A stretch of 64,000 bases of DNA from positions 372,001 through 436,000 of the forward strand of contig PLLO01000011.1 of NCBI GenBank assembly GCA_003142255.1. The letters run 5' to 3'. Each line of letters begins with the position of its first letter. Position 1 is the stretch's first letter. The translations under genes and the position numbers were made by a program. This DNA comes from Bacteroidales bacterium. GTDB taxonomy: Bacteria; Bacteroidota; Bacteroidia; Bacteroidales; VadinHA17. Below, in pieces: positions 8,176 to 33,715 of this stretch. The notes under the pieces were generated by a model, which did no database searches, was not told where the DNA came from, and saw nothing but the letters and a program-made list of their open reading frames with translations.

Positions 8176-8201
8176 AAGGCACGCTGTGAACAGCGTGCCT
8201 T
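8176..8201 (-). terminator. Attenuator terminator upstream of trpB2
   Basis: Read on the minus strand this is a perfect 11-bp stem (AAGGCACGCTG / CAGCGTGCCTT) with a TTCA loop and a run of six T. It lies between the trp leader ORF and the trpB2 start, 39 nt after the leader stop, so it would end transcription before the gene. AACAG overlapping the leader stop codon can pair with CUGUU of the 5' arm and loop, a weak candidate antiterminator. Confidence 0.85.
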
Positions 8202-8240
8202 AAAATTATTGGTATCCTTTATAGGGTATAAAACGGCCTG

Positions 8241-8291
8241 TTACACAGCATTAATTGAAGAGCTGCGCCAAGACCAATCATATATCCTCAT
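8241..8291 (-). CDS. Trp leader peptide (attenuation)
   Basis: A 16-codon ORF, M-R-I-Y-D-W-S-W-R-S-S-S-I-N-A-V, with two Trp codons separated by one Ser codon. An in-frame ATG at 8300 would add three residues but lies only 5 nt from the -7 element, so 8291 is preferred; its distance from the promoter is closer to that of the other three leaders. The ORF sits between a promoter and the terminator just before trpB2. Stalling at Trp codons under Trp shortage would favour read-through. This is inferred from the layout and from known attenuators. Confidence 0.7.
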   Translation of the reverse strand: MRIYDWSWRSSSINAV

Positions 8292-8305
8292 TGTTATCAT
8301 GTATG

Positions 8306-8338
8306 CAAAACTATATTAAAAATTCATTTAAGAGCAAA
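8306..8338 (-). promoter_or_regulatory. Bacteroidota-type promoter for the trp leader/trpB2 transcript
   Basis: On the minus strand TTTG (8335-8338), 21 nt, then TAGTTTTG (8306-8313), matching the -33/-7 consensus (TTTG, TAnnTTTG). It lies directly upstream of the leader ORF. Confidence 0.65.
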
Positions 8339-8407
8339 AAAATATAAAATATTTACTATTTAAAATGATTTTAAATAAAATTATTAACTGATCGACTCGT
8401 TTTTATG

Positions 8408-9658
8408 TCATTCATAAACCGATGCTCCGATTTTCCTCAGATCATCAAAGAATCCGGGGTACGATTTTGAAATACACTGTGAGTCCTTGATATACACTTT
8501 ACCCGTTGCTCCCAGTCCTGCCACAGCTGCAGCCATGGCAATGCGATGATCATCATGGGAAGAGAGATGCGCGCCTTTTACCTCACCACCGGTAACAAGC
8601 ATATAATCACCGCTGATCTCAATCTTTATATTTAGCTTACCGAACTCTTCGACAAGCGTGGCAGCACGATTGCTTTCCTTATGAATAAGTCTTGAAACTC
8701 CCTTTATCCCCGAGGTACCCTTGCAATATGCTGCAAGTGCTGCAAGAGGAGGGAAGAGATCGGGTGCTTCGGTCGCATCAAATTCGAAAGATTTCAGCGA
8801 CGATTTCCCTATTTCAATAATATTCTTCTCGATACTCATTCTGGCACCTGCCTTGTCGAGCGCTGAAAGGATAGCCTTATCGCTTTGCCTGCTGTCGGGG
8901 TGCAATCCAAGAACTGTAATGTTACCATTAATAGCCCCGGCGACAAGAAGGAATGCACCGCCGCTCCAGTCGCTTTCAACTTCGAAGCTGCAGGGCTTGA
9001 ATTTTTGCTTCCCCGGAATATCGAATTGATTGTAGTTATCATTCTTAACCTTTATTCCAAACCTTTCCAGCACCTGCAGAGTCATGTCAATGTATGGTTT
9101 GCTTTTAAGGTTATTGACTTTTACAACCGAATCTTTCATTGCGACAGGGAGAGCTATCAGCAGTCCTGTCAGAAGCTGCGAGCCCGAGGAGCCGTCAATT
9201 TCACATATACCCCCTTTAAGCGGACCTTTTATAGTAAGAGGAAGGAATCCGTTTTCTGTTTCACATTTGATACCGAATTGTTTCAGGGCCTCCTCGATCA
9301 TTGACATAGGCCTCTTCTTAAGCGACCCGGTTCCCGTTATCGTCAGTTCAGTTTTATAGAGGGCTGCCACTGGAGAGAACATGCGTATTGCAAGGCCAGA
9401 TTCGCCACAGTTGAGTTTTTTCTCCTTCAGCTCTGATGAACCGGTGATCTTCATCTTGTCGGTGTCAGGCTCCACTTTCGCGCCAAGCCCGACTGCGATA
9501 CTCATTGCAGCCAGGGAGTCATCGCAATATGAGGGGTTGATAATAGTACTTTCGCCATCGGCCAGCAGTGCGGCAGCAATAGCCCGCTGAGTCATACTTT
9601 TTGATGCCGGAGCCTTAACTTCGCCTTTTACCTTCGAAGGCACTATTATTCTTTCCAT
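8408..9658 (-). CDS. aroA: 3-phosphoshikimate 1-carboxyvinyltransferase (EPSP synthase)
   Basis: The 416-residue enzyme joins phosphoenolpyruvate to shikimate-3-phosphate, the sixth step of the shikimate pathway. Motifs seen: 'KAPASKSMTQRAIAAALL' (about 15-32, substrate Lys/Ser), 'LNCGESGLAIRMF' (about 81-93, the usual 'NxGTA' loop changed to NCGESG), 'GSSGSQLLTGLL', 'VESDWSGGAF', 'EAPDLFPPLAALAA' with the catalytic Asp, and 'DDHRIAMAAAVAGL' near the C-terminus. The NCGESG loop is unlike the NAGTA loop of the enterobacterial enzyme and could affect PEP-site inhibitor binding. It is the last gene of the aromatic operon, 11 bp after the DAHP synthase gene. Confidence 0.95.
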   Translation of the reverse strand: MERIIVPSKVKGEVKAPASKSMTQRAIAAALLADGESTIINPSYCDDSLAAMSIAVGLGAKVEPDTDKMKITGSSELKEKKLNCGESGLAIRMFSPVAALYKTELTITGTGSLKKRPMSMIEEALKQFGIKCETENGFLPLTIKGPLKGGICEIDGSSGSQLLTGLLIALPVAMKDSVVKVNNLKSKPYIDMTLQVLERFGIKVKNDNYNQFDIPGKQKFKPCSFEVESDWSGGAFLLVAGAINGNITVLGLHPDSRQSDKAILSALDKAGARMSIEKNIIEIGKSSLKSFEFDATEAPDLFPPLAALAAYCKGTSGIKGVSRLIHKESNRAATLVEEFGKLNIKIEISGDYMLVTGGEVKGAHLSSHDDHRIAMAAAVAGLGATGKVYIKDSQCISKSYPGFFDDLRKIGASVYE

Positions 9659-9669
9659 TGGCTGATGCT

Positions 9670-10791
9670 TTATTTGTTTTCAGTATGGTTATGATTCTCA
9701 ATTCCCTTATTCATAACTTTCATCTGGCAGTTAATAGATTCCTGGTGTATAGCCTTGAAAACATTATCAATAAGCTCGGCACTCAGACCTTTTGCCAGCC
9801 CTTTTTTCATCGCTTTCTTCACTACCTCGTCCCAGCGAACGGTCTGTAAGATAGTAATATTATTTTCTTTTTTATAGAGCCCGATGGTTTCCGATACTTT
9901 CATCCGCTGTTCCATCAGGTCAATCAGATGATCATCATAAATGTCGATCTGCTGACGTAATTCGCCAAGAACATCAAGCAATTTAGGGTCGGTGGTCGAG
10001 GCATTACGGAGAATAAGCCTGCTCAAGAGCTCTTTCAGGTCGTTGGGTGTAAGCTGCTGTGAAGCATCACTCAGGGCTTTATCGGGATTAATATGTGACT
10101 CGATCATCAACCCGTCAAAATTCAGGTCCATTGCCTTCTGAGATATCTCGTACAAATATTCCCTTGAACCGGATATATGGCTCGGGTCGCAGATAATTGG
10201 AAGATCAGGGATCCTGCGACGCAGCTCAATAGGTATCTGCCAGTTCGGCTGATTCCTGTATGTTGTCTTCTCATAGGATGAGAAACCGCGGTGAATGGCA
10301 CCCAGTCTCTTAATACCTGCTTTTGCAACTCTTTCAATTGCACCGATCCATAATTCGATATCCGGATTAATGGGATTCTTGACAAATACCATTACATCTA
10401 CACCTTTAAGAGCATCGGCGATCTCCTGCACTGTGAAAGGATTAACAGAAGTCCTGGCACCGATCCACAGCATATCGATCCCGTATTTCAAAGCTTCATA
10501 AACATGCTTTTCGTTTGCTACTTCGGTTGCTACCGGAAGGCCGGTCTCTTTTTTCACGGTCCTGAGCCATTTCAGTCCCGGAATGCCAACACCTTCGAAT
10601 GTATTTGGCCGTGTTCTTGGCTTCCAGATTCCAGCGCGGAAGATGCTGACCCGGTTCAGTGATGCAAGCTCCCTTGCTGTTTCAAGTACCTGCTCCTCAG
10701 TCTCTGCACTGCAGGGTCCTGAAATCAGGAAAGGCCTCGCTTTGTATCCGTCCCACTCCCTGATAAGGGAAGTATCAAGATTTAAAACCAT
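9670..10791 (-). CDS. Bifunctional DAHP synthase / chorismate mutase
   Basis: A 373-residue fusion. Residues about 1-265 form the DAHP synthase barrel of the AroF/KDO8P-synthase-like type ('LISGPCSAETEEQ', 'FRAGIWKPRTRPNTFEG', 'GARTSVNPF', 'AIHRGFSSYE', 'ICDPSHISGSREY'). Residues about 272-360 form an AroQ chorismate mutase helix bundle ('LGELRQQIDIYDDHLIDLMEQRM', with the Arg/Lys/Glu pattern of the active site). It catalyses the first shikimate step and the branch from chorismate to prephenate. In related fusions the mutase domain gives feedback control by chorismate or prephenate. It lies between tyrA (15 bp) and aroA (11 bp). Confidence 0.93.
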   Translation of the reverse strand: MVLNLDTSLIREWDGYKARPFLISGPCSAETEEQVLETARELASLNRVSIFRAGIWKPRTRPNTFEGVGIPGLKWLRTVKKETGLPVATEVANEKHVYEALKYGIDMLWIGARTSVNPFTVQEIADALKGVDVMVFVKNPINPDIELWIGAIERVAKAGIKRLGAIHRGFSSYEKTTYRNQPNWQIPIELRRRIPDLPIICDPSHISGSREYLYEISQKAMDLNFDGLMIESHINPDKALSDASQQLTPNDLKELLSRLILRNASTTDPKLLDVLGELRQQIDIYDDHLIDLMEQRMKVSETIGLYKKENNITILQTVRWDEVVKKAMKKGLAKGLSAELIDNVFKAIHQESINCQMKVMNKGIENHNHTENK

Positions 10792-10806
10792 CTGTATTTA
10801 AGATAT

Positions 10807-11652
10807 TTAATTTAATATTTTCCTGATCTTATTTGCTTCTTCCATCAATGATTTCAACCCCTCCGCATCCCTCTCTGAAATCAATTTTCTAAAAGTATTC
10901 ATCTTTTCAATATAAGTATCGATCACTTCGATAATATATTCAGAGTTTTCTGTAAAAATTGGCGCCCATGTTTCCCCATTGCTCTTTGCGAGCCTCACGG
11001 TACTTTCGAAGCCGCCTCCCGCAAGTGCCAGGATGTTCCCTTCCTCCTTTTCCTTTTCCAGCACGCTCAGCGCCAGCGAGAAGGATGTAATATGAGAAAT
11101 GTGGGATATATAAGCGACATGCACGTCATGAACATCAGAATTCATGTAAACCAGGTGCATGTTAAGGATTTTGAACATGTTTTCCACGAGATCCTTTGCA
11201 TCAGTATCGCTGAGCTCAGGATCGCAGATTATGGCTGTTTTGTAATCGAAAAGCTTGCCTATGGCGGCCATGGGACCTGAGTACTCAGTTCCTGCCATGG
11301 GGTGGGCAGCAACGTACCTGCCCCGGCCGGGGTGATCTTTAGAGACCCTTGCAATTCCTGACTTTGTTGATCCCATATCTGCCACTACTTTCGAAGTGCC
11401 ATTTATCATGTCAAGGATGGCTGGAAGCATAGATATATTTGCATCGACAGGAGTGCAAAGCAATATAAGATCACTTTTCCCGATTGCATTTTCAAGAGTG
11501 TCAGTTTCATCTATAATACCGCAGAGCTGTGCAATATTACGATGCTGTGGATTGGTATCCACCCCGATTATCTTATCGGCAAAATGCCGCTTGCGGATGT
11601 CCAGCGCAAGTGAGCCGCCTATTAAACCTATTCCGATTACTGCTGTTGTCAT
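10807..11652 (-). CDS. tyrA: Prephenate dehydrogenase
   Basis: A 281-residue NAD(P)-dependent enzyme that oxidatively decarboxylates prephenate to 4-hydroxyphenylpyruvate on the way to tyrosine. The N-terminal Rossmann motif 'AVIGIGLIGGSLAL' (about 4-17) is followed by 'VVADMGSTKSGI' and 'AAHPMAGTEYSGP' (catalytic His), then the helical dimerisation domain ('HVAYISHISHITSFSLAL', 'ALAGGGFESTVRLA'). No ACT domain is present, so allosteric control by tyrosine may be absent. It lies 21 bp after the aminotransferase gene. Confidence 0.93.
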   Translation of the reverse strand: MTTAVIGIGLIGGSLALDIRKRHFADKIIGVDTNPQHRNIAQLCGIIDETDTLENAIGKSDLILLCTPVDANISMLPAILDMINGTSKVVADMGSTKSGIARVSKDHPGRGRYVAAHPMAGTEYSGPMAAIGKLFDYKTAIICDPELSDTDAKDLVENMFKILNMHLVYMNSDVHDVHVAYISHISHITSFSLALSVLEKEKEEGNILALAGGGFESTVRLAKSNGETWAPIFTENSEYIIEVIDTYIEKMNTFRKLISERDAEGLKSLMEEANKIRKILN

Positions 11653-11673
11653 ATTACTAGTTGTTTCTTTCGG

Positions 11674-12861
11674 TTACCGGTTACCGGTCACCGTTTTTTC
11701 TTTAAGATACTTTTCAATCCTGATCTTTGCTTCAGTAAGTGTTGCTTCATTGGCACAGAGCGATATCCGGATGTACCTTTCTCCATTGGATCCAAAAATA
11801 AATCCTGGTGTGATGAAGACGTTTACCTTTGTCAGAACATCCTCGACAAAATCTTCGCAGTTTTTTATAGTGTCAGGGATACGGCCCCAGACAAAGAGGC
11901 CTACCTGGTTTTTATCGTACCTGCAATTCAGCACATCCATTATATCCTCAACAATTCTGCGTCTTGACATGTAATGGCTGTTAACCTTGTCGTACCATGA
12001 AGGAGGGTTGCCGAGAGCCTCGGCAGCTGCCTCCTGCATAGCCCGGAACATGCCCGAATCCATATTGCTTTTTACTTTGAGTACAGAGCTGATATATTCC
12101 TTATGGCCTGCTGCCATTCCTACTCTCCATCCTGCCATATTATGCGATTTGCTCAGGGAATTAAGCTCAAGGGCAATCTCCCTGGAGCCGTCAATTGCGA
12201 GGAGGCTTATGTACTCCTTATTGAGGATGAAGCTGTATGGATTATCGTTGCATAAAAGTATACCATGCTTTAAGGCGAATGCCGTAAGCTGTTCAAACAG
12301 CCTGTACGACCCCTTTGTTCCTGATGGCATGTGGGGATAGTTTATCCACATCATTTTTACATTTTCCAGGTTGCTCTCTTCAAGCTTCTGAATATCGGGA
12401 TACCATCCGTTTTTTTCATCCAGGTCATAATATCTTATGTTCCCGCCGACCAGCTTAGTGATGGATGAATATGTAGGATATCCGGGATTTGGAACAAGTA
12501 CGTCATCGCCAGGATTTACAAATGCCATGCTGATATGCATTATTCCCTCCTTGCTTCCCATAAGAGGAAGTATCTCGCTTTCCGGGTCAAGGATTACGTT
12601 GAAATAAGTTTTGTACCATTTTGCAAAGGCATTACGAAGGGCTGGTATCCCGGTATAGCTCTGGTACCCATGCGAAGTTGGCTTCAAAGCTTCCCTGTAC
12701 AGACTTTCAATAGTGCTCTGCGACGGCGGCTGGTCCGGACTGCCAATGCCGAGGTTTATGACATCAGCTCCGGATTTGCGCATCTGGTCTATCTGCTTCA
12801 GCTTTTGCGAAAAATAGTATTCCTGGACACTATTTGTCCTCTCTGCCGGTTTAACTTTCAT
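11674..12861 (-). CDS. Class I/II aminotransferase, probably aromatic or prephenate-pathway
   Basis: A fold-type I PLP aminotransferase of 395 residues, starting at ATG 12861 ('MKVKPAERTNSVQEYYFS'). A longer frame to 12966 exists but would overlap pheA by over 100 bp and gives a non-family N-terminus, so it is rejected; the chosen start overlaps the pheA stop by 11 bp, consistent with coupling. The PLP lysine is in 'SLSKSHNMAGWRVG' (about K238). Sitting between pheA and tyrA, it most likely makes Phe/Tyr from the keto acids or arogenate from prephenate, but the family also includes LL-diaminopimelate and aspartate aminotransferases. The last residues (TVTGNR) and the stop fall inside a GGTTACCGG-type simple repeat (11671-11692), so the C-terminus may have been altered by repeat growth. 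Confidence 0.88.
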   Translation of the reverse strand: MKVKPAERTNSVQEYYFSQKLKQIDQMRKSGADVINLGIGSPDQPPSQSTIESLYREALKPTSHGYQSYTGIPALRNAFAKWYKTYFNVILDPESEILPLMGSKEGIMHISMAFVNPGDDVLVPNPGYPTYSSITKLVGGNIRYYDLDEKNGWYPDIQKLEESNLENVKMMWINYPHMPSGTKGSYRLFEQLTAFALKHGILLCNDNPYSFILNKEYISLLAIDGSREIALELNSLSKSHNMAGWRVGMAAGHKEYISSVLKVKSNMDSGMFRAMQEAAAEALGNPPSWYDKVNSHYMSRRRIVEDIMDVLNCRYDKNQVGLFVWGRIPDTIKNCEDFVEDVLTKVNVFITPGFIFGSNGERYIRISLCANEATLTEAKIRIEKYLKEKTVTGNR

Positions 12862-13681
12862 ACAATTCCTCTCCTTTATTATATATTCCGAGGACCTCAA
12901 GATCCCTCGTATAATTTTCAAGCGTGTTCTTAACCAGTCCCATGTCATGATCAGGCTTAAGCTCAATGTCCAGATAGAACATATATTCCCAGTCGCCGTT
13001 CAGCTTTGGCACTGACTGTATCTTCGAAAGATTAATCTCAAGCTCAGCAAGCCTTACGAGAACCGCAGCGAGCGATCCCGGCTGATGGCCGGTTGAAAAA
13101 CAAATTGAGACTTTATTCCCGTCGCTGTTTACATGCTTCTCATCGCCGAGTACAAGAAACCTGGTGTAGTTTTTCTTGTATGTTTCTATCCCGGGGGCCA
13201 GTATCTCAAGACCATATAATTCAGCAGCAATGGCGGGCGCAATTGCGCCGACATTCTTAAGGTTATTTTCTTTGATGAATTTAGCACTTCCGGCGGTATC
13301 GTCACTTTCGATCAGAGTAACTCCACGCAGATGATTCAGGTAAGTCATGCACTGTGAAAGTGCAATCGGGTGCGATCTTATTTCCCTGATTGATGCTATT
13401 TGCTGACCAGGGAGAGCCATAAGGTTTTGAACTACCCGGAGGTTATGTTCACCAAGGATCTTCATTCCTGATTCCCTGATAAGGGTGTAGTTATAAAGGA
13501 TGCTTCCCGACCTGGCATTTTCAATAGCCATTATCGCAAAATCAGCCTGGTTTTCCTTCACGGCCATCAGTGTCATGTCAAAAGTAGTGCATGGGACCAT
13601 GGTAATGTCCTCGTCTTTGAAGTACTGTCTTGCAGCTACTTCATGAAAACAACCGTGCTCACCCTGAATTGATATTCTCAT
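12851..13681 (-). CDS. pheA: Prephenate dehydratase
   Basis: A 276-residue enzyme converting prephenate to phenylpyruvate. ATG at 13681 begins 'MRISIQGEHGCFHEVAA'; a TTG nine bases upstream is possible but less likely. The catalytic part includes 'FAIMAIENARSGSILYNY' and the 'NYTRFLVL' (TRF) motif (about 170). The C-terminal ACT domain starts near 'KVSICFSTGHQPGSLAAVL' (about 185) with 'KIQSVPK' in place of the usual ESRP, so phenylalanine feedback is probable but its strength is uncertain. It is the first structural gene of the aromatic operon and lies just downstream of a Phe/Tyr leader and an intrinsic terminator. Confidence 0.94.
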   Translation of the reverse strand: MRISIQGEHGCFHEVAARQYFKDEDITMVPCTTFDMTLMAVKENQADFAIMAIENARSGSILYNYTLIRESGMKILGEHNLRVVQNLMALPGQQIASIREIRSHPIALSQCMTYLNHLRGVTLIESDDTAGSAKFIKENNLKNVGAIAPAIAAELYGLEILAPGIETYKKNYTRFLVLGDEKHVNSDGNKVSICFSTGHQPGSLAAVLVRLAELEINLSKIQSVPKLNGDWEYMFYLDIELKPDHDMGLVKNTLENYTRDLEVLGIYNKGEELYES

Positions 13682-13703
13682 ATTATTCAATATTAAAAAA
13701 AAA

Positions 13704-13721: not shown

Positions 13722-13764
13722 CTTGCATCTTATAATTCATTTAAGCGTATACAATAATCCCCTC

Positions 13765-13827
13765 TTACTTCTTAAAATAAAAATAGAAGTAAAAATAAGC
13801 GGCGATCCAGTTGTATGCTTTATTCAT
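13765..13827 (-). CDS. Phe/Tyr leader peptide (attenuation)
   Basis: A 20-codon ORF encoding MNKAYNWIAA-YFYFYFYF-KK, ending TAA. Eight consecutive alternating Tyr and Phe codons make a regulatory role very likely. It lies between a Bacteroidota-type promoter and the terminator before pheA. Stalling in the Tyr/Phe run would leave the GGGGA antiterminator free. The two amino acids match the end products of the operon. Confidence 0.9.
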   Translation of the reverse strand: MNKAYNWIAAYFYFYFYFKK

Positions 13828-13845
13828 TCTTGTCTTGTTGGTTTA

Positions 13846-13874
13846 CAAAAGTAATGCAATTTTCAAAATAACAA
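13846..13874 (-). promoter_or_regulatory. Promoter of the aromatic operon leader
   Basis: On the minus strand TTG (13872-13874), 18 nt, then TACTTTTG (13846-13853), matching TAnnTTTG at -7. It is 18 nt upstream of the leader ATG. The same element and spacing occur before the ilv leader. Confidence 0.6.
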
Positions 13875-14420: not shown

Positions 14421-15014
14421 CTATTGCTTATGGCGATCCTTCAAGACGGTCTCAATATCTGAAAGAGTCACACCTTTGGCTTTAAGAAGTATCAGTAAGT
14501 GGTATAGCAGGTCGGCAGCCTCATTTTTAAAAAGGGTAAGGTTGTTGTCTTTTGCTTCGATAACAAGTTCAACGGCCTCTTCTCCTACTTTCTGTGCTGC
14601 CCTATTGATGCCCTGTTTATATATTTTATTTGTATAAGAGTCTTCAATGTTTTCATCAATTCGCTGACTGACGATCTGTTCTAGCCTGTAGAGAAAGCCC
14701 TTTGATTGAACTTCATTAAAACATGAGATTGACCCTGTGTGGCATACCGGTCCTGCAGGCTCTGCTTTTATAAGGAGAGTATCGTTATCGCAATCGGTTA
14801 TTATATCTTTAACAAACAGATAGTTGCCTGATGTTTCACCTTTAGTCCAGAGTCTCTTTTTGCTGCGGCTGAAAAAGGTCACTTTCCCTTCCCTGAGCGT
14901 CTTTTCAAGAGCCTCCTCATTCATGAAGCCCAGCATTAGTACCTGCATTGTTGCAAAATCCTGTATTATGGCTGGTACAAGTCCGTTTCCTTTAGTAAAA
15001 TCGGGTTTATTCAT
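14421..15014 (-). CDS. hisIE: Bifunctional phosphoribosyl-AMP cyclohydrolase / phosphoribosyl-ATP pyrophosphatase
   Basis: A 197-residue fusion catalysing steps 2 and 3 of histidine synthesis. The HisI part (about 1-110) has 'MLGFMNEEALEKTL', 'FFSRSKKRLWTKGETSGN' and metal-binding residues in 'ITDCDNDTLL' and 'GPVCHTG'. The HisE helical part (about 115-197) has 'QKVGEEAVELVIEA' and 'EAADLLYHLLILL'. It is the last gene of the histidine operon but is separated from hisF by a 311-bp insert containing a decayed DUF559 gene and inverted repeats, so its expression may differ from the rest. Confidence 0.94.
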   Translation of the reverse strand: MNKPDFTKGNGLVPAIIQDFATMQVLMLGFMNEEALEKTLREGKVTFFSRSKKRLWTKGETSGNYLFVKDIITDCDNDTLLIKAEPAGPVCHTGSISCFNEVQSKGFLYRLEQIVSQRIDENIEDSYTNKIYKQGINRAAQKVGEEAVELVIEAKDNNLTLFKNEAADLLYHLLILLKAKGVTLSDIETVLKDRHKQ

Positions 15015-15038
15015 AATGTTTTTGTTTGCATTTGTTTT

Positions 15039-15230
15039 CTACTTGCACGTACTCACACCCTTCTTTTCCCCCTCTCCATTCACCCCCCAACCCCCCTGAA
15101 GGGGGGCTAAGAATGACATAACTTCTAAGATTTTGTTGATCACCGCATTTATATCATTAAATACCTGATCATTTTTAAACCGTAATATTTTGATTTTAAT
15201 CTTTTCGATATCATTTGTTCGTCCATTGTG
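15039..15230 (-). pseudogene. C-terminal remnant of a DUF559-type endonuclease gene
   Basis: In the hisF-hisIE gap the minus strand encodes, after an in-frame TAA, 'GRTNDIEKIKIKILRFKND' and then 'NDINAVINKILEVMSF', which fits the C-terminal end of DUF559 (VSR-like fold) proteins: the 'ILRFxND' strand followed by a final helix. The frame then runs through the C-run repeat (LAPLQGGWGVNG) to TAG at 15039-15041. The catalytic N-terminal part and a start are missing. The fragment is bracketed by 27-bp inverted repeats, which suggests that it entered or moved as a repeat-flanked unit. Too short for full certainty. Confidence 0.6.
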
Positions 15231-15281
15231 TTAAATAATTAACAAAACATAAGAAGCCCCCCTTCAGGGGGGTTGGGGGGT
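15082..15281. repeat. 27-bp perfect inverted repeats (C-run type) bracketing the DUF559 remnant
   Basis: Positions 15082-15108 and 15255-15281 are exact reverse complements of each other, each itself containing a CCCCCC-TGAA-GGGGGG hairpin. They enclose about 146 bp carrying the DUF559 remnant. They belong to the dispersed C-run family. Confidence 0.85.
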
Positions 15282-15325
15282 AAAAAAAGAGAGAGGGGGA
15301 TTGGGGTGAGTTCATGCTTCAATAT

Positions 15326-19476: not shown

Positions 19477-19492
19477 ATTAAGTTTTTTTCAG

Positions 19493-19567
19493 ACCCCCAT
19501 CCAGACCTTCCCCCACAGGGGAAGGTTCAGTTGCTTTTCCCACTTGGGGGAAACGGGAAAAGGGGTA
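19493..19567. repeat. C-run hairpin repeat between hisD and hisC
   Basis: Two hairpins of the dispersed family (CCTTCCCC-ACA-GGGGAAGG and TTTCCC.../GGGGGAAA) fill the gap between hisD and hisC. A stable intra-operon hairpin could attenuate or stabilise the downstream mRNA; no T run follows on the coding strand, so it is probably not a strong terminator. Confidence 0.7.
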
Positions 19568-19602
19568 AGTGATGCACAAATATTTCATTTCTATTTTTAT
19601 CC

Positions 19603-23044: not shown

Positions 23045-23054
23045 AAATGTTTAA

Positions 23055-25219: not shown

Positions 25220-25240
25220 TTCCCTTGTAATAAAGTATTG

Positions 25241-26644
25241 TTAATTTTTTAACAGATCGGCCGGGTTGGTTATTTTCCCGGTTATGGCTGCAGCTGCAGC
25301 TGTAAGAGGGCTTGCAAGGAGTGTTCTTGAACCAGGGCCCTGTCGGCCTTCGAAGTTTCTGTTGGATGTGGAAACAGCATATTTTCCTGCAGGTATTTTA
25401 TCCTCATTCATTGCCAGGCATGAAGAGCATCCTGGTTGTCTTAGCTCAAAGCCTGCATCCTTCAGTATCTTGTCAAGGCCTTCCCTGATAGCCTGCTGCT
25501 CGACTCTCTTTGAGCCCGGAACGATCAGGGCGGTTACTCCGGGAGCTTTCTTCCTCCCTTTCACGAACTGGGCAAATGCCCTGAGGTCTTCAATTCTGCC
25601 GTTGGTGCAGCTGCCCAGGAAAACATAATCAATAGGGTAGCCAAGGATTTTTTCTCCCGGCTTAAATCCCATGTAGTCAAGAGATTTCAGGAATGAAGCT
25701 TTTCCTTCACCCTGGCTTTCAGCATCAGGAATCGTATCATCTATTGCCATACCCATCCCGGGATTTGTCCCGAATGTTATCATCGGCCTTATTTTTGAAG
25801 CGTCAAACTCGAGTTCACGGTCAAACACGGCACCTTCATCACTCTTTAAAGATCTCCACCTGAGAAGCAGCGATTTGAAATCGGGACGGCTCTCGACAGA
25901 GGGTATCCTGTTAAGATACTCATAGGTGGTGAAGTCCGGGGCAATGAGTCCGCCCCGGGCACCCATTTCAATGCTCATATTGCATACCGTCATTCGCCCT
26001 TCCATGCTGAGAGCTTCAATGGCAGCGCCGCAATATTCCACAAAAAAGCCTGTCGCGCCTCCTGCTGAAATTTTTGAAATGATGTAGAGTATTATATCCT
26101 TGGCCGTTACGCCTTTCTGAAGCGATCCGTTCACAGTGATCTTCATCTTCTTTGGTTTCGGCTGAAGAACGCATTGTGAAGCAAGCACCATTTCGACTTC
26201 ACTGGTTCCTATTCCGAAGGCTATAGTCCCGAAAGCGCCGTGGGTCGACGTATGGCTGTCGCCGCAGACAATTGTAGTCCCCGGAAGCGTATATCCAAGC
26301 TCCGGACCGACAACGTGCACAATTCCGTTTTTAGGATGGTTGAGACCGAAGTATTCAATCCCGAATTCACTGCAATTATGATTCAGCGTTTCCACCTGTT
26401 TACGCGACAGTTCATCCTTAATAGGCAGCTCCTGTTCCCTGGTTGGAATATTGTGGTCAGCGGTAGCTGTTGTCTTGCCTGGACGAAAAACAGTTATACC
26501 CCTGGCTCTCAGTCCGTCGAAAGCCTGGGGGCTGGTAACTTCGTGGATGAAATGGCGATCGATGTAGAGGACGTCAGGGCCGCCTTCAATCGAGCGCACA
26601 ACATGGATGTCCCATATTTTATCAAAAAGTGTTGCTGGTCCCAT
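25241..26644 (-). CDS. leuC: 3-isopropylmalate dehydratase, large subunit
   Basis: A 467-residue aconitase-family subunit with a [4Fe-4S] cluster: the first Cys in '[17 protein letters not shown]' (about 348) and the pair in '[13 protein letters not shown]' (about 408-411). Also '[16 protein letters not shown]' (about 130) and '[18 protein letters not shown]' near the C-terminus. Of the bacterial LeuC type. It follows leuA by 5 bp. Confidence 0.96.
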
Positions 26645-26649
26645 AATAT

Positions 26650-28143
26650 TTATTTGATCTTCGATATTGCATCAATAAAGGCTTCGACCGAAGCGGTTAT
26701 AATATCAGTATTTGTCCCGAATCCGTAGTAGATCTTATCCTCGTGTCCAACCTGAACATGGACTTTTCCGAGGTCGTCGCTTCCCCTGGTAATTGCCTGG
26801 ATCAGGAACTCTTCAAGATGTACTGTCTTGCTGATGAGATGTTTGACAGCAGTAAATGCAGCGTCCACCGGTCCATTCCCTGAGGCGGTTGAAGTATGCA
26901 CTTCGCCGTTGATCTTTAATCCAACCGTAGCTATGGGAATTGCAGATTTTCCGCAGGTAACCTGGAGCAGTTCCAGTTTGAGTGATTTCTCGCCCTGGAA
27001 AACTTCTCCCGTGAGGATCCTGATATCTTCATCGTTTATCTCCTTCTTTTTGTCGGCAAGCAGCAGAAAGCGATGATACACATCGTCGAGCTCCTCCTTG
27101 CCCAGATTGAATCCAAGAAGCTCAAGACGGTGATTAAGTGCCGCTCTTCCGCTCCGGGCAGTGAGAATTATCGATGACTCCCTTATCCCGACCTCAACCG
27201 GATCTATTATCTCATAATTCTCCCTGTTCTTAAGAACGCCATCCTGATGGATGCCAGAGGAGTGCGCAAATGCATTTCGTCCGACGATGGCTTTGTTTGC
27301 CTGTACAGGCATGCTCATAAGCGTGGAAACAAGCCTGCTCGTGCTGAATATAAGCTTGGAATTAATGTCGGTACGAAGCTTAAGCTCGTGATGGCTTTTG
27401 ATAATCATTGCTATCTCCTCGAGCGATGTATTCCCGGCCCTTTCTCCGATTCCGTTTACAGTGACCTCCACCTGCCTGGCTCCGTTTATGATACCCATCA
27501 TGGTGTTTGCAGTGGCCATGCCAAGGTCGTTATGGCAATGTGTCGAGATCATTGCTTTGTCGATATTCGGAACATGTTCTACCAGGTATTTTATTTTTGC
27601 ACCATACTCTTCAGGCAGGCAGTAACCGGTAGTGTCAGGAATATTTACGACTGTAGCGCCTGCATTTATCACGGCTTCAATCACCTGGGCGAGATATTCA
27701 TTATCGCTCCGGCCTGCATCTTCGGCATAGAACTCTACATCATCGACAAATTTCCTGGCATACTTTACTGCATCGCATGCTCTCCTGATGATCTCATCGG
27801 GAGTAGTCTTTATCTTGTATTTGATATGAAAAGGCGAAGTGCCTATCCCGGTATGTATTCTTTTTCTTTTTGCATACTGAAGAGCTTCGGCAGCAACCTC
27901 GATATCCTTTTTAACTGCACGGGTCAGTGCGCAGATTACCGGATTTGTTATAACTTTTGAAATTTCAACCACGGAGTTGAAATCGCCCGGGCTTGATATC
28001 GGAAAGCCTGCCTCAATGACATCCACACCGAGAGCTTCCAGCACCTCCGCGACCTCTATTTTCTCGATAGTGTTAAGCTGGCATCCGGGCACCTGTTCAC
28101 CATCTCTCAGGGTGGTGTCAAAAATAATTACCTTATCATCCAT
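26650..28143 (-). CDS. leuA: 2-isopropylmalate synthase
   Basis: A 497-residue enzyme that condenses acetyl-CoA with 2-oxoisovalerate, the committed leucine step. The catalytic barrel has '[16 protein letters not shown]' (about 8-23), '[19 protein letters not shown]' (metal His pair, about 200) and '[16 protein letters not shown]'. The C-terminal leucine-sensing domain (about 390-497) has '[12 protein letters not shown]' and '[19 protein letters not shown]'. It is followed by leuC after 5 bp; ilvC lies 22 bp upstream. Confidence 0.95.
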
Positions 28144-28165
28144 TTTTATAAGTTTTTATGATGAG

Positions 28166-29215
28166 TTACTTTTTAGCTGGTCTCAGCTTCCTGACAGCAA
28201 TACCGGTCCTCCATAATTCAGAATTGCCCATCTCCTTAAGTTCTGCATCGAGCATTTCCTTATAGTTTGGCGCCCCTGTCGACTTAAGCACCCTCACACA
28301 CTCTTTGCCCGATTTTACTTTCTTATACAGATCTTTAAATACAGGAAGAGTAGCCTTCATGAATTTCGGACGCCAGTCAAGTGCTCCCCGCTGAGCCGTT
28401 GCACTGCAGTTGCTGTACATCCAGTCCATGCCATTCTCGTCAACAAGTCTTATCAGGCTCTGGGTAAGCTCCTCAACAGTTTCATTGAAAGCTTCGGAAG
28501 GAGAGTGCCCGTTAGTGCGGAGCACCTGGTACTGTGCATCCATGATACCGGCCAGTGCACCCATAAGAACACCCCGCTCCCCGGTGAGATCGCTGTAAAC
28601 CTCTTTCTCGAATGTCGTGGGAAAAAGATATCCTGAGCCTATTGCAATTCCAAGAGCTATAGTCCTCGCTTCGGCTTTCCCGGTAAAATCCTGGAATACC
28701 GAATAGCTTGAGTTGATCCCTGCACCTGCAAGAAAATTCCTGCGGACACTCGTGCCTGATCCTTTGGGAGCGCAGAGAATAACATCGATATCGGCAGGAG
28801 GGATGACGCCTGTATGTTTCTTATAAGTAATTGAAAAACCGTGTGAGAAATAAAGGGCTTTGCCTTTTGTAAGATGCGGCTTAAGCTTCGGCCATAATAT
28901 ACGCTGTGCTGCATCGGAGACCAGGTACTGGATTATAGTGCCTTTTTCGGCAGCTTCTTCAACCGGGAAGAGGCTTACTCCGGGAACAAATCCATCCTTT
29001 ACTGCCTTGTCCCAGTCGGCTTTGAATTCGGGAGCCTGTCCGACAATTACATTGATCCCGTTATCTTTCATGTTCATTCCCTGTGCAGGTCCCTGAACAC
29101 CATATCCGATAACTGCAACAATTTCATCTTTAAGCACTTCACGTGCCTTTGCAAGTGAGAATTCTTCTCTTGTTACTACATCTTCAATTACACCGCCAAA
29201 ATCGATTTTTGCCAT
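28166..29215 (-). CDS. ilvC: Ketol-acid reductoisomerase
   Basis: A 349-residue class I NADPH-type enzyme catalysing isomerisation and reduction of acetolactate or acetohydroxybutyrate. The Rossmann loop is 'VAVIGYGVQGPAQGMNM' (about 33-49); 'CAPKGSGTSVRRNF', 'SDLTGERGVLMGALAG' (metal Asp/Glu) and 'YSNCSATAQRGALDW' form the knotted helical domain. It is separated from ilvN by 153 bp holding a C-run repeat. Confidence 0.95.
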   Translation of the reverse strand: MAKIDFGGVIEDVVTREEFSLAKAREVLKDEIVAVIGYGVQGPAQGMNMKDNGINVIVGQAPEFKADWDKAVKDGFVPGVSLFPVEEAAEKGTIIQYLVSDAAQRILWPKLKPHLTKGKALYFSHGFSITYKKHTGVIPPADIDVILCAPKGSGTSVRRNFLAGAGINSSYSVFQDFTGKAEARTIALGIAIGSGYLFPTTFEKEVYSDLTGERGVLMGALAGIMDAQYQVLRTNGHSPSEAFNETVEELTQSLIRLVDENGMDWMYSNCSATAQRGALDWRPKFMKATLPVFKDLYKKVKSGKECVRVLKSTGAPNYKEMLDAELKEMGNSELWRTGIAVRKLRPAKK

Positions 29216-29271
29216 GATTAAAATTTTAATTTGTATTATGATACTTTCTTTTATTTTTTCTTCTATTCAAT

Positions 29272-29360
29272 TACCCCCTTCCCTCCCGAGTACTCGGGAT
29301 TCCCCCATGGGGGAAGGAGTCGGCTTTACGTTTCCCCCCTGGGGGAAAATGAAAGGGGGT
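29272..29360. repeat. C-run hairpin repeat between ilvN and ilvC
   Basis: Two hairpins (TTCCCCCATGGGGGAA and TTTCCCCCCTGGGGGAAA) plus a small CCCGAGTACTCGGG palindrome, all of the dispersed family, fill the ilvN-ilvC gap inside the branched-chain operon. It may act as an mRNA-stability element; no T tract marks a terminator. Confidence 0.75.
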
Positions 29361-29368
29361 TTTTATAA

Positions 29369-29935
29369 TTAGTTTTTATTATAGTTTTCAACCTTTTCAG
29401 GTGCAAACCTGTTTGCTTCGTCCATCTCCTTGAGATATGAATTGAGTTCTTTGACCTGTTTTGTGATTGCGACCCTTCCCGAGCGGACAAACTGCAAAAC
29501 GCCGTATGGCTCGAGCTGGTTAAGAAGCTCGGCTATTTCAGTTTTATGACCTGTCTTTTCAATTATGATGTATTCGGGTGAGACCTCAAGAATTCTTGCA
29601 TGCTGGGTCCTCACGAGATGATCGATCACGTTTCCCGACATCAGGCCTTTTGTTGTTACCTTGTAAAGGGCAATCTCCTGGTAAATGATCTCATCCGAAG
29701 TGTGAACAAATACTTTAAGGACATCGACCAGCTTTTCCATCTGCTTCGCGACCTTCCTGACCATATCGGGAGTGGTCTTTACAACAAGCGTGAGCAGCTG
29801 AACACCTTTTACTGCAGATTCCGAGGCAGTAATGCTTTCGATATTTATCTGCCTGCGGGTCAGTATTATCGTTATCTGGTTCAGGATCCCTATGTGGTCC
29901 TCGCTGAACAATGAAATTGTAAATTCCTGTTTCAT
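29369..29935 (-). CDS. ilvN: Acetolactate synthase, small (regulatory) subunit
   Basis: A 188-residue protein with an N-terminal ACT domain ('FTISLFSEDHIGILNQITIILTRR', about 4-27; then 'IESITASESAVKG') and the C-terminal subunit domain. It binds the large subunit and usually gives valine feedback. It overlaps the ilvB stop by 4 bp (ATGA). Confidence 0.93.
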   Translation of the reverse strand: MKQEFTISLFSEDHIGILNQITIILTRRQINIESITASESAVKGVQLLTLVVKTTPDMVRKVAKQMEKLVDVLKVFVHTSDEIIYQEIALYKVTTKGLMSGNVIDHLVRTQHARILEVSPEYIIIEKTGHKTEIAELLNQLEPYGVLQFVRSGRVAITKQVKELNSYLKEMDEANRFAPEKVENYNKN

Positions 29936-31698
29936 GATTTATAATTAAGCGTTACTTCTGAAACTGATGCTCCGGGTTCAACCATCGGAAGGACATTTCC
30001 CTCCTTATCAATTTTTATATCGAGCAGATACGGTCCTTCTGATTTAAGCAGATCGATGAGCGATTTTTTCAGTTCTGATCTTTCGTTTACTTTCTGTCCT
30101 GGTATGCTGTATCCTGCAGCTATTGCGACGAAGTCAGGATTCTCCAGCTTCGTTGAGGCGTACCTTTTATTGAAGAACATATCCTGCCACTGGCGTACCA
30201 TTCCAAGGTATCCGTTGTTAAGGATTATAATCTTGACAGGAACTTTATATTGCATGATAGTCCCGAGTTCCTGGATGGTCATCTGAAATCCACCATCGCC
30301 GATGAATGCAACTACCTGCCTGCCCGGGTTGCCGATCTTTGCGCCGATCGATGCAGGCAGTCCGAATCCCATTGTTCCCATTCCGCCCGATGTTACCAGG
30401 CTGTTTGGGGTCGTGAATCTGAAATACCTTGCAGCTGCCATCTGGTTCTGTCCGACATCAGTTACAATTACTGCATCGCCTCCGGTCAGCTCCGATACAA
30501 GATTTATGACTTCACCCATCCTTATATCACCGGAGTCTGGTTTCGTCTCCGATTTAATAACCTTTTCAAATTCTATCTTGTCGCATATCCTGAATTCCCT
30601 GATCCATGATTCATATGTTTTCTTTTCGACAAGAGGGATAAGATGGCTGAGCACCTCTTTTACATCGTTATGAATTTCGAGATCAACCTGGACATTCTTA
30701 TTGATCTCGGCTTCGTCGATTTCAATATGTATTATACGTGCCTGAATTGCATATTTCTTAAGGTTGCCGGTAACCCGGTCGTCAAAACGCATTCCTATGG
30801 CAATTATCAGATCAGCCTCGTTGGTAAGCATGTTTGGCCCATAATTTCCATGCATTCCCAGAAACCCTGCATAGAGTCTGTGACCGGAAGAAAAAGAGGA
30901 TATTCCCAGAAGGGTGACGGCGACGGGTATTCCGGTTTTTTCGGCGAATTCCCTGAGTTCCTTCTCTGCTCCGGAGATAAGAACGCCATGTCCTGCAAGA
31001 ATCAAAGGCCTCTCAGCGTGATTTATCATTATCGCAGCTGACTCGATAGCCCTGGTATGAAGCGGTATATGAGGATTATAGCTTCTCAGGTAAGTGCACT
31101 TTTTGTATTTATAGCTTAGTTTTTCATTCTGAGCATCCTTTGTGATGTCAACCAGAACAGGGCCCGGTCTGCCCGTGGTTGCTATATAAAATGCCTTTGC
31201 AATTGTGTCAGGAATATCCTGTGCTTTCTTTACCTGGCAATTCCATTTGGTGACAGGCATCGAGACTCCAAGGATATCTGTCTCCTGGAAGGCATCAGTT
31301 CCGATCAGAGTCGAGACCACCTGCGCAGTAATGAATACCACCGGTACCGAATCGAGGTAAGCATTGGCGATCCCTGTTATGAGGTTTGTCGCCCCGGGAC
31401 CGGAAGTAGCAAAACATATTCCAGGTTTGCCTGATACCATTGCATAGGCCTGGGCAGCATGGGCAGCCCCTTGCTCATGACGGGTCAGGATATGCTTCAG
31501 CTTATCCTCGTAATCGAGGAGCTTGTCATATACCGGCATTATGGCTCCGCCCGGATAACCGAAAATAGTGTCGACACCCTCTTCGATTAGGCACCTGAGG
31601 AGCGCATCAGCACCTGTTATCTGCTCAACGCCATTAAAACTGGTTTCTTCGGCAGTTGCTTTCTCTTTTTTCATATCTGTTTCTAAATCTGTATTCAT
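29932..31698 (-). CDS. ilvB: Acetolactate synthase, large (catalytic) subunit
   Basis: A 588-residue TPP/FAD enzyme that makes acetolactate or acetohydroxybutyrate. Motifs: '[15 protein letters not shown]' (about 43-57), '[18 protein letters not shown]' with the catalytic Glu (about 74), '[18 protein letters not shown]', '[12 protein letters not shown]', and the TPP site '[16 protein letters not shown]' through '[15 protein letters not shown]' (about 468-505). It starts within the ilvD stop (4-bp overlap). Confidence 0.95.
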
Positions 31699-33521
31699 AT
31701 ATTTCTGACCGCTCCTTTGTCGGCTGAGCTTACGAATGCGGCATAGGCCCTGAGTGAAGCAGGAATTTCACGGTTTCTCTTTCCTGGTTTGAATGCTTTC
31801 AATCCTTTTTCTTCCTCTTTCTTCATTCTTTTAATCAGCTCATCTGCAGAAAGCTTAACATTTAATTTTCTGCCCGGAATATTGATCTCGATAATATCGC
31901 CATCCTTTATCAGAGCCAATGCTCCGGCTGCAGCAGCCTCCGGCGACACATGACCCACTGACAAACCGGATGTACCTCCCGAGAATCTGCCATCAGTGAT
32001 CAGTGCACATTTTTTACCAAGACCTTTTGACTTAAGGTAGGAGGTAGGGTAGAGCATCTCCTGCATTCCCGGACCTCCCTTTGGACCTTCATAGCGGATT
32101 ATCACAGCATCGCCTTCCCTGATTTTACCGGCAAGGATGCCATCGGATGCTTCCTCCTGTGATTCGAAAACCACTGCCGGGCCGGTGAACAAAAACAGGT
32201 TCTCATCAACTCCTGCAGTTTTCACAATAGACCCGTCTTTCGCCAGGTTCCCGTAAAGAACAGCAAGTCCGCCATCTCTGTTATATGGGTGTTGCGTGCT
32301 GCGGATGCATCCATTCTCCCTGTCAGTATCGAGAGTATCGTACATTGTATCATGCGAACCCATCTCAATACTTCTTTTCATTGCCGGGGCGCTCCTGTAA
32401 AATTCATTTGCTTCAGGCTTGGCCTTGCCACCAAGGATATCCCAGTCATCGATGGCTTCTTCCAGCGACTGATAATCCACTCTCTTTACTGAAGTGTCTA
32501 TCAGCCCGGCACGGTTCAGCTCACCCATAATTGCCATGATCCCCCCGGCGCGGTTGACATCCTGAACATGGAAGTGCGAGCTTGGCGCTACTTTGCATAT
32601 ATTCGGAATCCTGCGCGAAAGGGCATCTATATCTTTCATTGTAAAATCAACCTCTGCCTCGTGTGCCAGGGCAAGGAGGTGAAGAACGGTATTTGTAGAT
32701 CCGCCCATTGCTATATCGAGCGACATGGAGTTCATGAAAGCTTCTTTGGTTGCAATTGAACGCGGAAGCACGCTTGCATCGCCGTCAGAATAATATCTTT
32801 CAGTTATTTCTACAATCAGCCTGGCTGCTTTCTTGAAAAGTTTTGTACGGTTAGCATGTGTGGCAACTATTGTTCCGTTCCCGGGAAGGGCAAGCCCCAG
32901 AGCTTCATTGAGGCAGTTCATTGAGTTTGCCGTAAACATGCCTGAGCAAGAGCCGCAGGTTGGACAGGCAGTTCTTTCCATCTCATCGAGCTCATTGTCA
33001 CTTACCTTATCGTCAGCACCATCGACCATTACGTCGACCAGGTCGAGAGGACGGTTTCCGCGCAGGCCTGCTTCCATTGGTCCGCCAGAGACAAATACCG
33101 CAGGAATATTAAGGCGGAGAGCCGCCATCAGCATTCCCGGGGTTATCTTGTCGCAGTTGCTGATACAAATCATTGCATCAGCACAATGGGCATTGCAGAC
33201 ATATTCAACGCTGTCGGCTATGAGTTCACGCGAGGGCAGGGAATAGAGCATCCCGGTATGTCCCATCGCAATTCCGTCATCAATTGCAATCGTGTTGAAT
33301 TCCGCGGCAAAGCATCCGCTCTTTTCTATTTCTTTCTTAATGGTCTGACCGATCGAGTGAAGATGAACATGCCCGGGCACGAACTGTGAAAAGGAATTTA
33401 CGATAGCAATCACAGGTTTGCCAAAGCTCTCCTCTTTCATCCCGTTGGCGCGCCACAGGCTCCTGGCTCCTGCCATTTTCCTGCCGGTCATTGTTTTCAG
33501 ACTCCTGAGCTGGTTCTTCAT
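31695..33521 (-). CDS. ilvD: Dihydroxy-acid dehydratase
   Basis: A 608-residue Fe-S enzyme making the 2-oxo acids of valine and isoleucine. Cluster-type Cys motifs are '[13 protein letters not shown]' (about 122-134) and '[19 protein letters not shown]' (about 191-209). Near the C-terminus '[24 protein letters not shown]' holds the catalytic Ser region. It is the first structural gene of the branched-chain operon, immediately after the Ile/Leu/Val leader and terminator; only 21 bp separate the terminator stem from its ATG. Confidence 0.96.
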
Positions 33522-33542
33522 TTTAAAATCAGTATTGAAAAA

Positions 33543-33570
33543 AAGGCTCCCCGGTTACCCGGAAAGCCTT
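33543..33570 (-). terminator. Attenuator terminator upstream of ilvD
   Basis: On the minus strand a 12-bp stem (AAGGCTTTCCGG / CCGGGGAGCCTT, two G-T pairs) with a GTAA tetraloop, followed by seven T. It lies 31 nt after the leader stop. UUUCCGG of the 5' arm (33559-33565) can pair over 7 bp (one wobble) with CCGGGAA at 33594-33600, which starts 1 nt after the leader stop codon: a clear antiterminator candidate. Confidence 0.9.
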
Positions 33571-33601
33571 TGTATATTTATAGCTACATATTATTCCCGG
33601 T

Positions 33602-33664
33602 TCACTTGTTTTTCACAAGAAGGATAAGAATGAGGGCAATAATATGTATTAAAAAAAATCGCAT
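33602..33664 (-). CDS. Ile/Leu/Val leader peptide (attenuation)
   Basis: A 20-codon ORF, MRFFLIHIIA-LILILLVKNK, ending TGA. Five Ile, five Leu and one Val codons, concentrated in codons 5-17, match the three products of the operon. It lies between a Bacteroidota promoter and the terminator before ilvD. The hydrophobic run could also suggest a tiny membrane peptide, but the flanking promoter, terminator and antiterminator pairing favour attenuation. Confidence 0.88.
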   Translation of the reverse strand: MRFFLIHIIALILILLVKNK

Positions 33665-33685
33665 TGTTTATTTCAAATAGCTTGA

Positions 33686-33715
33686 CAAAAGTATAGATAT
33701 TTTTAATATATCAAA
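33686..33715 (-). promoter_or_regulatory. Promoter of the ilv-leu operon leader
   Basis: On the minus strand TTTG (33712-33715), 18 nt, then TACTTTTG (33686-33693). The -7 octamer is identical to that of the aromatic operon promoter. Confidence 0.7.

Follow-up and report, generated by a model that had tools for sequence, protein, structure and literature searches.

Four transcription units on the minus strand of the window, a 64,000-nucleotide stretch of DNA from a Bacteroidales bacterium, are best interpreted as ribosome-mediated transcription attenuators, a known kind of switch, and judging from the sequence each of them very probably works in this way. The original prediction had given the TrpB2, pheA-aro, his and ilv-leu units the same parts in the same order (Bacteroidota-type promoter, leader ORF, intrinsic terminator, first gene), and both this arrangement and the positions of the four leader ORFs, boxes and terminators on the minus strand were borne out. 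The ORFs, promoter-like boxes, putative terminators and competing pairings, whose conservation is described below, are located as follows.

8306..8313, minus, -7 box TAGTTTTG of the TrpB2 unit (exact motif; TTG 21 nt upstream)
8241..8300, minus, Trp leader ORF MITMRIYDWSWRSSSINAV (translation, 19 codons, the 9th and 11th for W)
8235..8249, minus, TrpB2 antiterminator upstream strand GCTGTGTAACAGGCC, spanning the leader stop codon
8176..8201, minus, TrpB2 terminator hairpin, then T-tract (-19.5 kcal/mol), preceding TrpB2
6771..8132, minus, TrpB2-type tryptophan synthase beta chain (NF009057 708.8 bits, TIGR01415 623.9 bits, both above cut-off)
13846..13853, minus, -7 box TACTTTTG of the aromatic operon (exact motif; TTG 18 nt upstream)
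13765..13827, minus, Phe/Tyr leader ORF MNKAYNWIAAYFYFYFYFKK (20 codons, 20 aa; nine F/Y and one W)
13756..13762, minus, aro antiterminator upstream strand GGGGATT, just 3' of the leader stop codon
13701..13724, minus, intrinsic terminator before pheA (-15.1 kcal/mol)
8408..13690, minus, aromatic operon (NCBIfam matches, some below curated cut-off)
21919..21926, minus, -7 box TATCTTTG of the his operon (exact motif; TTG 19 nt upstream)
21838..21900, minus, His leader ORF MYRLSSQQHHSHTCPQARRY (20 codons, 20 aa; HHSH at codons 9-12)
21847..21855, minus, his antiterminator upstream strand CAGGCGAGG (fold series), within the leader ORF, 3' of the His codons
21782..21813, minus, intrinsic terminator before hisG (-15.8 kcal/mol)
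14421..21740, minus, his operon hisG-D-C-B-H-A-F-IE (NCBIfam matches)
33686..33693, minus, -7 box TACTTTTG of the ilv-leu operon (exact motif; TTG 18 nt upstream)
33602..33664, minus, Ile/Leu/Val leader ORF MRFFLIHIIALILILLVKNK (20 codons, 20 aa; 11 cognate)
33594..33600, minus, ilv antiterminator upstream strand CCGGGAA, just 3' of the leader stop codon
33542..33571, minus, intrinsic terminator before ilvD (-22.0 kcal/mol; pair counts)
21983..33521, minus, ilvD-ilvB-ilvN-ilvC-leuA-leuC-leuD-cimA-leuB operon (NCBIfam matches; cimA below its cut-off)

The motif TAnnTTTG, which we take to be the Bacteroidota-type promoter, is matched exactly in all four units with TTG 18-21 nt upstream of the box, and by sequence match it lies upstream of the leader ORF in each. 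From box to ATG the gap is 18 nt for aro, 18 nt for his and 21 nt for ilv, in agreement with the predicted 17-21 nt, but 5 nt for TrpB2 (14 nt to a second ATG at 8291, which would give 16 aa instead of 19). Each short ORF has many codons for the amino acid that its operon produces, and the proposed fit between sensed amino acid and operon is confirmed by the products of the NCBIfam-identified downstream genes, which for the aromatic operon are prephenate dehydratase, aminotransferase, prephenate dehydrogenase, a DAHP synthase-chorismate mutase fusion and EPSP synthase. The three operon leaders here do have exactly 20 codons, as claimed, but script-picked leader ORFs vary in length among relatives (ilv 13-24, aro 17-21, TrpB2 9-28, his 8-45), so the shared length looks like coincidence and a conserved 20-codon design was rejected. 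The block itself, described as 27 kb, spans 25.5 kb by its own coordinates. Every unit carries a stable hairpin plus T-tract whose end lies 17-43 nt upstream of the first gene's start codon, so that, as far as sequence can tell, leader ORF and gene are separated by an intrinsic terminator.

For start sites, leader translation and the response to charged tRNA, we infer the following course. RNA polymerase would start just 5' of the short leader ORF with a ribosome trailing behind. With cognate charged tRNA in good supply, the ribosome would reach the leader stop codon and cover the antiterminator upstream strand, so that the terminator hairpin would form and transcription would end before the first gene. 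When cognate charged tRNA is scarce, the ribosome would stall on the cognate codons and leave that strand free to pair, in his, aro and ilv with the terminator 5' arm and in TrpB2 (and in trpE elsewhere) with that arm, the loop and the first nucleotides of the 3' arm, whereupon the terminator would fail and the operon would be transcribed. In all four units the upstream strand lies at the 3' end of the leader ORF or closely follows it, and in parked-ribosome folds a ribosome at the stop codon masks this strand while one on the cognate codons frees it. A mutually exclusive antiterminator was found in every unit, most weakly in TrpB2 unless the loop and the start of the 3' arm are counted.

To gauge cognate enrichment, the 201-nt leader region of every unit was dinucleotide-shuffled 20000 times. 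The observed cognate count was reached by 623 shuffles for TrpB2, 33 for aro, 607 for his and 226 for ilv, so that enrichment, although above most shuffles at all four loci as the original prediction required, is modest at each locus taken alone; at the Trp leader, with its 2 W, and the His leader, with its 3 H, roughly 3% of shuffles match. These rates, together with the cheapness of F, Y, I and L codons in AT-rich leaders, are what would speak for codon-rich ORFs being AT-rich by-products and the hairpins being constitutive partial terminators or 5' mRNA stabilisers. Against this, the cognate residues of the leaders follow the pathway across five gene families, His leaders score in 22 of 22 sampled genomes of the window's class at a mean shuffle rate of 0.0045, and competing pairings are seen, through ilv covariation and duplex tests; we consider the by-product explanation very improbable. 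More specific than the single-locus codon shuffles was an architecture scan blind to the amino acid, covering 809 kb (0.81 Mb) of the same contig on both strands: it returned 7 terminator matches, four of them these loci, and six block shuffles of the scanned sequence gave 1, 2, 3, 1, 0 and 2. A second, looser scan was run without shuffle control.

For the ilv-leu unit, leader and terminator occur at 28 of 30 ilvD loci (rows L092, without leader, and L098, with an assembly gap, were dropped, and L110 was left out of alignment A1). The leader holds TACATATTATT, complementary to AATAATATGTA at 33585-33595, which makes a protector hairpin. In the antiterminator 12 cells, which come from related genomes and are not independent, changed on both sides versus 4.2 in shuffles, and none of the 500 shuffles reached 12; 72 of the 500 equalled the observed count of double-change pairs and 435 matched the pair types. 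The ilv alignment is imperfect, since sliding the terminator by one column raises covariation to 0.371 from 0.269 in place. For the aromatic unit, the fold series pairs GGGGATT with GGTCCCC when a ribosome is parked on the F/Y codons; leaders are present in 24 of 30 pheA rows, window counted, and at all 6 leaderless loci pheA lies directly behind a leuB homologue (L075, with a leader and a terminator not called by the script, was dropped before counts). At his loci, CAGGCGA was found in 12 of 14 Bacteroidales (16 of 45 rows were dropped from the pairing test). When native upstream strands were compared with mononucleotide-shuffled upstream strands in a duplex test (z < -1.65), the terminator 5' arm alone gave 22/23 for aro, 17/29 for his and 16/28 for ilv, and a wide target of 5' arm, loop and 4 nt of the 3' arm gave 21/23, 22/29 and 19/28. 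A median of 17-32% of foreign same-family terminators bind the native strand equally well or better, which is expected of related loci and is not a sharp test.

The Trp antiterminators, in TrpB2 and in trpE, on another contig of the genome and also equipped with an attenuator, appear from sequence to reach across the terminator loop, a new detail. In the pairing test with the 5' arm only, both fail (4/42 for TrpB2, 1/19 for trpE), and with loop and 3' arm as target trpE reached 3/19. The duplex test likewise gave 2/35 and 0/19 with the 5' arm alone, and 34/35 and 15/19 with the wide target; the trpE set of 19 includes L164, a doubtful ORF left out of alignment A3. The TrpB2 duplex amounts to -18.6 kcal/mol with the wide target and only -6.6 in the simple fold series. 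Pair counts also back the TrpB2 antiterminator, and the trpE helix is 70-73% paired, but because hand-placed pairs in both partly crossed gap columns, the Trp case, trpE included, rests on the wide-target duplex test. A pure 3'-arm antiterminator for TrpB2, hinted at by the pairing test and one set of pair counts, was rejected, as the other set and the duplex test agree with a single long helix that is bulged and runs from the 5' arm through the loop into the first part of the 3' arm. Before counting, 8 of 50 TrpB2 rows and 4 of 23 trpE rows were dropped; 7 of 30 trpE loci, with weaker matches, lay outside the sample. Trp leaders are present upstream of TrpB2 in relatives, and by the set criteria were absent at 5 of 30 genome TrpB2 loci.

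At hisG, leaders were found at 29 of 30 loci in a first sample and 22 of 38 in a second; for other classes the figures were 25 of 26 in the first, composed of the best-scoring hisG matches, and 4 of 20 in the second. Some relatives in the phylum combine a His leader with a C-rich, G-poor spacer in which no intrinsic terminator was found, a new detail that would favor leaders acting on translation of the first gene or via Rho. In all four window units, though, hairpin and T-tract stand at the short distance given above and the antiterminator competes with that very hairpin, which leaves this mode of action scarcely credible here. Control by a tRNA-binding T-box or a metabolite riboswitch, for which nothing speaks beyond the presence of a terminator, is extremely unlikely and was rejected on the Rfam search of the window, sub-threshold matches included: no family, T-box among them, passed its gathering score, and the ten matches obtained for 8100-33800 at E up to 10 include neither a T-box nor a riboswitch.

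Ribosome-mediated attenuation as a general control of amino-acid genes, as originally proposed, gains from its recurrence at trpE, from a candidate leader unit at lysC-lysA outside the window and from the His leaders in every sampled genome of the class, but extends to the phylum only in part, and a leader ORF looked for at thrA of this genome was not found, so that a Thr leader there was discarded. To say that attenuation replaces DNA-binding repressors overstates the case: no TrpR turned up in the genome, but one ArgR-type and one Lrp/AsnC-type protein are present. The claim that no repressor is encoded nearby agrees with the lack of a transcription-regulator match among 37 distinct window proteins scanned, though these cover part of the window and at least 3 match no family in the libraries tried. 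A tentative joint reading is that leader-peptide attenuation might be the ancestral and default control of amino-acid operons in Bacteroidia, with a Trp antiterminator that captures the terminator loop, a lysC-lysA leader that senses lysine, and outside-class His leaders that swapped the intrinsic terminator for a Rho-type spacer.

Attenuation of this kind demands a ribosome that keeps pace with RNA polymerase, and default attenuation in Bacteroidia, if true, would imply close transcription-translation coupling there. Bacteroidia mostly start translation without Shine-Dalgarno sequences. As the parts occur in every class-mate sampled for hisG, coupling in that group is directly testable. The leaders would be ready-made amino-acid sensors, and they supply regulatory annotation missed here by public RNA models (Rfam, gathering score), for a classic switch that is supported here by sequence and conservation.

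A 2010 attenuation survey by Lopatovskaya, Seliverstov and Lyubetsky reportedly covers, by its title, bacterial amino-acid and aminoacyl-tRNA operons. It is cited in PMC4833913. Within the open-licence PubMed Central literature, as represented by excerpts, attenuation is little described in this group. Strong clues for leader-peptide attenuation 5' of amino-acid operons are given for Flavobacterium psychrophilum (PMC9723704), of the same phylum, where in the excerpted part attenuation takes one main-text sentence. For B. thetaiotaomicron the same literature mentions sORFs located in long 5' UTRs, and PMC8305728, on his genes of this superphylum, describes attenuation for enterobacteria in the part considered; PMC7366714 and PMC9247905 are further sources. 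Among Rfam leader families (His, Leu, Phe, Thr, Trp), none exceeds its gathering score in the window. Phe_leader (RF01859) overlaps the aro leader at 27.9 bits (gathering 55) and Trp_leader (RF00513) the TrpB2 leader at 22.9 bits (gathering 41); being below gathering, and with the best Phe_leader match (29.6 bits) falling on the ilv leader, these say little on identity. In E. coli, the attenuators of trp, his, pheA and ilv likewise join a cognate-rich leader ORF, alternative protector, antiterminator and terminator structures, an intrinsic terminator and a cognate operon. The units described here differ from them in lacking an Rfam match at gathering score, in a Bacteroidota-type box 5-21 nt before the ATG, and in Trp antiterminators that seem to span the terminator loop.

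Between 6771 and 33693, four amino-acid units are encoded in the window:
TrpB2 unit, minus strand: gene for a TrpB2-type tryptophan synthase
aro operon, minus strand: prephenate dehydratase (pheA), aminotransferase, prephenate dehydrogenase, DAHP synthase-chorismate mutase fusion, EPSP synthase
his operon, minus strand: hisG-D-C-B-H-A-F-IE
ilv operon, minus strand: ilvD-ilvB-ilvN-ilvC-leuA-leuC-leuD-cimA-leuB

Upstream of the first gene of each unit, a TAnnTTTG box (with TTG 18-21 nt 5' of it), a short ORF, a T-tract hairpin and the gene follow each other in identical order. The leader ORFs of TrpB2, aro, his and ilv are MITMRIYDWSWRSSSINAV, MNKAYNWIAAYFYFYFYFKK, MYRLSSQQHHSHTCPQARRY and MRFFLIHIIALILILLVKNK, respectively. 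A promoter-to-ATG distance of about 17-21 nt, as proposed in the original prediction, holds for aro, his and ilv (18, 18 and 21 nt from the box) and fails for TrpB2 (5 nt, or 14 nt to a second ATG). Palindromic repeats of C- and G-runs lie intergenically in or beside the operons (14200-14400, 15060-15300, 19510-19580, 29270-29360 and 34600-34760), and a sub-threshold match to a miRNA family at 15066-15301 is one such palindrome.

Dinucleotide shuffles of the leader regions matched the cognate codon count in 623 (TrpB2), 33 (aro), 607 (his) and 226 (ilv) of 20000 cases, and codon content per locus, taken alone, is a modest signal. The architecture is more telling against chance. When the 809-kb contig including the window (C7) was scanned on both strands and blind to amino acids for a box, followed after 3-40 nt by an ORF of 8-40 codons, and a terminator, 7 terminators were obtained, the four units among them, and six block shuffles gave 1, 2, 3, 1, 0 and 2. 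Making a downstream gene obligatory left 5 terminators, 4 of which belong to the four units.

Folding with the ribosome parked at successive leader codons yielded two mutually exclusive RNA states, with terminator energies of -19.5 (TrpB2), -15.1 (aro), -15.8 (his) and -22.0 kcal/mol (ilv). The antiterminator appears in the folds once the strand at the ORF end, or just 3' of it, is free. Its partner strands are GGGGATT and GGTCCCC for aro, CAGGCGAGG and CCCGTCTG for his, and CCGGGAA and TTTCCGG for ilv; these three pairings are lost with the ribosome at the ORF end. For TrpB2, the antiterminator of this fold series reaches only -6.6 kcal/mol. Within the ilv leader, TACATATTATT is complementary to AATAATATGTA 3' of the ORF (88.9% of cells paired, 27 relatives), and this pairing may form a protector hairpin, which would explain the conserved Leu-Ile-His-Ile-Ile stretch.

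In relatives, pairing was called strong at z below -1.65 relative to shuffled upstream strands. With the 5' arm as target, it was strong at 16/28 ilv, 22/23 aro and 17/29 his loci, at 2/35 TrpB2 and at 0/19 trpE loci. Adding the loop and four more bases gave 19/28, 21/23 and 22/29 for ilv, aro and his, and a separate run with slightly longer arms gave 22/28, 21/23 and 25/29. TrpB2 and trpE differ from these in that the loop and the start of the 3' arm are needed (34/35 and 15/19, respectively), and with this wider target the TrpB2 duplex of the window reaches -18.6 kcal/mol, near the terminator's own energy. Without the 5' arm, loop and 3' arm sufficed at 38/42 TrpB2 but only 3/19 trpE loci (longer-arm run). 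As a control, the native strand was bound at least equally well by a median of 17-32% of other loci's terminators. The ilv antiterminator is paired in 88.8% of cells, compared with 17.6-69.5% when slid, and shows changes on both sides in 12 cells versus 4.2 in shuffles; two coarser change measures did not exceed shuffles. For the ilv terminator (83.0% paired), 15 double-change cells compare with 4.4 in shuffles, and its covariation score is higher when slid one column than in place. The halves of the TrpB2 helix are 88.9% and 80.8% paired, with 8 versus 2.0 and 12 versus 6.9 double-change cells.

Leader and terminator accompany ilvD at 28/30 loci, the exceptions being L092 and L098 (assembly gap). 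A leader precedes pheA in 24/30 rows including the window, 23 of the 24 with a terminator detected by script; at the six leaderless loci (L068-L071, L073, L079), pheA lies directly behind a leuB homologue (34.9-36.3% identity) and lacks a separate attenuator. Of 14 Bacteroidales hisG genes fetched with pheA, 12 have a terminator and a His leader bearing CAGGCGA. Both elements occur in 42/50 TrpB2 rows; among the 8 dropped, three have a Trp leader with no terminator found by script, and in five a Trp leader was not found by the criteria used. For trpE, 19 of 23 rows (the best 23 of 30 loci returned) have both, L164 being doubtful. Five genus members (G204, G207, G209, G210, G216; 92-98% complete) possess TrpB2 and gave no trpE match; the Trp leader is kept in three (L151, L138, L146) and was not found by the criteria used in two (L137, L147). 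TrpB2 might serve there in tryptophan-controlled indole salvage.

Across the phylum, hisG is present in 171/198 genomes, and its upstream region was inspected in 68 for an ORF containing three or more His. Such an ORF was found at 29 of the 30 best-scoring matches and at 22 of 38 loci picked to spread over families. The window's class had it throughout (4/4 and 18/18, respectively), and the observed His score was matched in shuffles of these 22 regions with a mean frequency of 0.0045; other classes had it in 25/26 of the best-scoring but 4/20 of the family-spread set. In 18 of 64 pooled His leaders no intrinsic terminator was found by script, although an imperfect one is visible by eye in two of them (L036 and L040). 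Median spacer composition of the terminator-less leaders is C 0.255 and G 0.09, versus 0.145 and 0.18 with terminator, L295, L303 and L313 being exceptions to this C-rich, G-poor pattern. Loci showing the pattern are:
L023-L027, L033, L041-L044, L046, L308, L322: His-rich ORF before hisG, no intrinsic terminator found, more C than G in the spacer

Such a spacer composition resembles that of Rho-dependent termination, and these leaders could be a Rho-dependent version.

Elsewhere in the genome, trpE (contig C1) is preceded by the leader MKMEVKYTNWCWQLVIFHKKM and a terminator, and lysC by the ORF MFKQLKKILRLIMHPEFGSASSLPLGF and a terminator; the gene 3' of lysC is presumably diaminopimelate decarboxylase. 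By eye, about 11 of 20 lysC loci (L275-L294) retain an ORF of the same type that carries Lys (NKQIKK...IKH), together with a terminator and the CAGGTCTG/CAGACCTG kind of complementarity, making the lysC leader a candidate lysine attenuator only. The thrA gene departs from this design. At 15 of 23 genus thrA loci, including L266 of this genome (others among L251-L273), a leader ORF is absent by eye, and a small hairpin and T-rich stretch lie shortly 3' of the promoter region. Thr-rich leaders occur in two members of the genus (L245, L249). A looser scan of three contigs (C7, C1 and C11; 1.55 of 3.73 Mb, without shuffle control) returned 26 places, including all four units as well as the trpE and aspartokinase leaders; at the remaining places no cognate signal was seen by eye.

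The proposal that attenuation replaces DNA-binding repressors is too sweeping. None of 37 distinct window proteins scanned, a set excluding large ORFs beyond 47144 and others, matched a transcription regulator, and no TrpR match was found in the genome; against replacement, one ArgR-type and one Lrp/AsnC-type protein are encoded outside the window. Attenuation therefore looks like a main, not the sole, control of amino-acid genes.

Leader-peptide attenuation as a mechanism is textbook knowledge. In an Rfam search of the window, no family reached its gathering score; sub-threshold matches placed Trp_leader over the TrpB2 leader and Phe_leader over the aro leader, the best Phe_leader match falling on the ilv leader. 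In open-licence literature, such leaders were found mentioned only in a single main-text sentence, which places leader-peptide attenuation upstream of amino-acid operons in Flavobacterium psychrophilum (PMC9723704), and in a remark of general kind about B. thetaiotaomicron (PMC7366714); a 2010 survey, as cited in PMC4833913, could include Bacteroidetes. The leaders of the window are real, well-supported additions to this known mechanism, and some structural and phyletic detail is new here.
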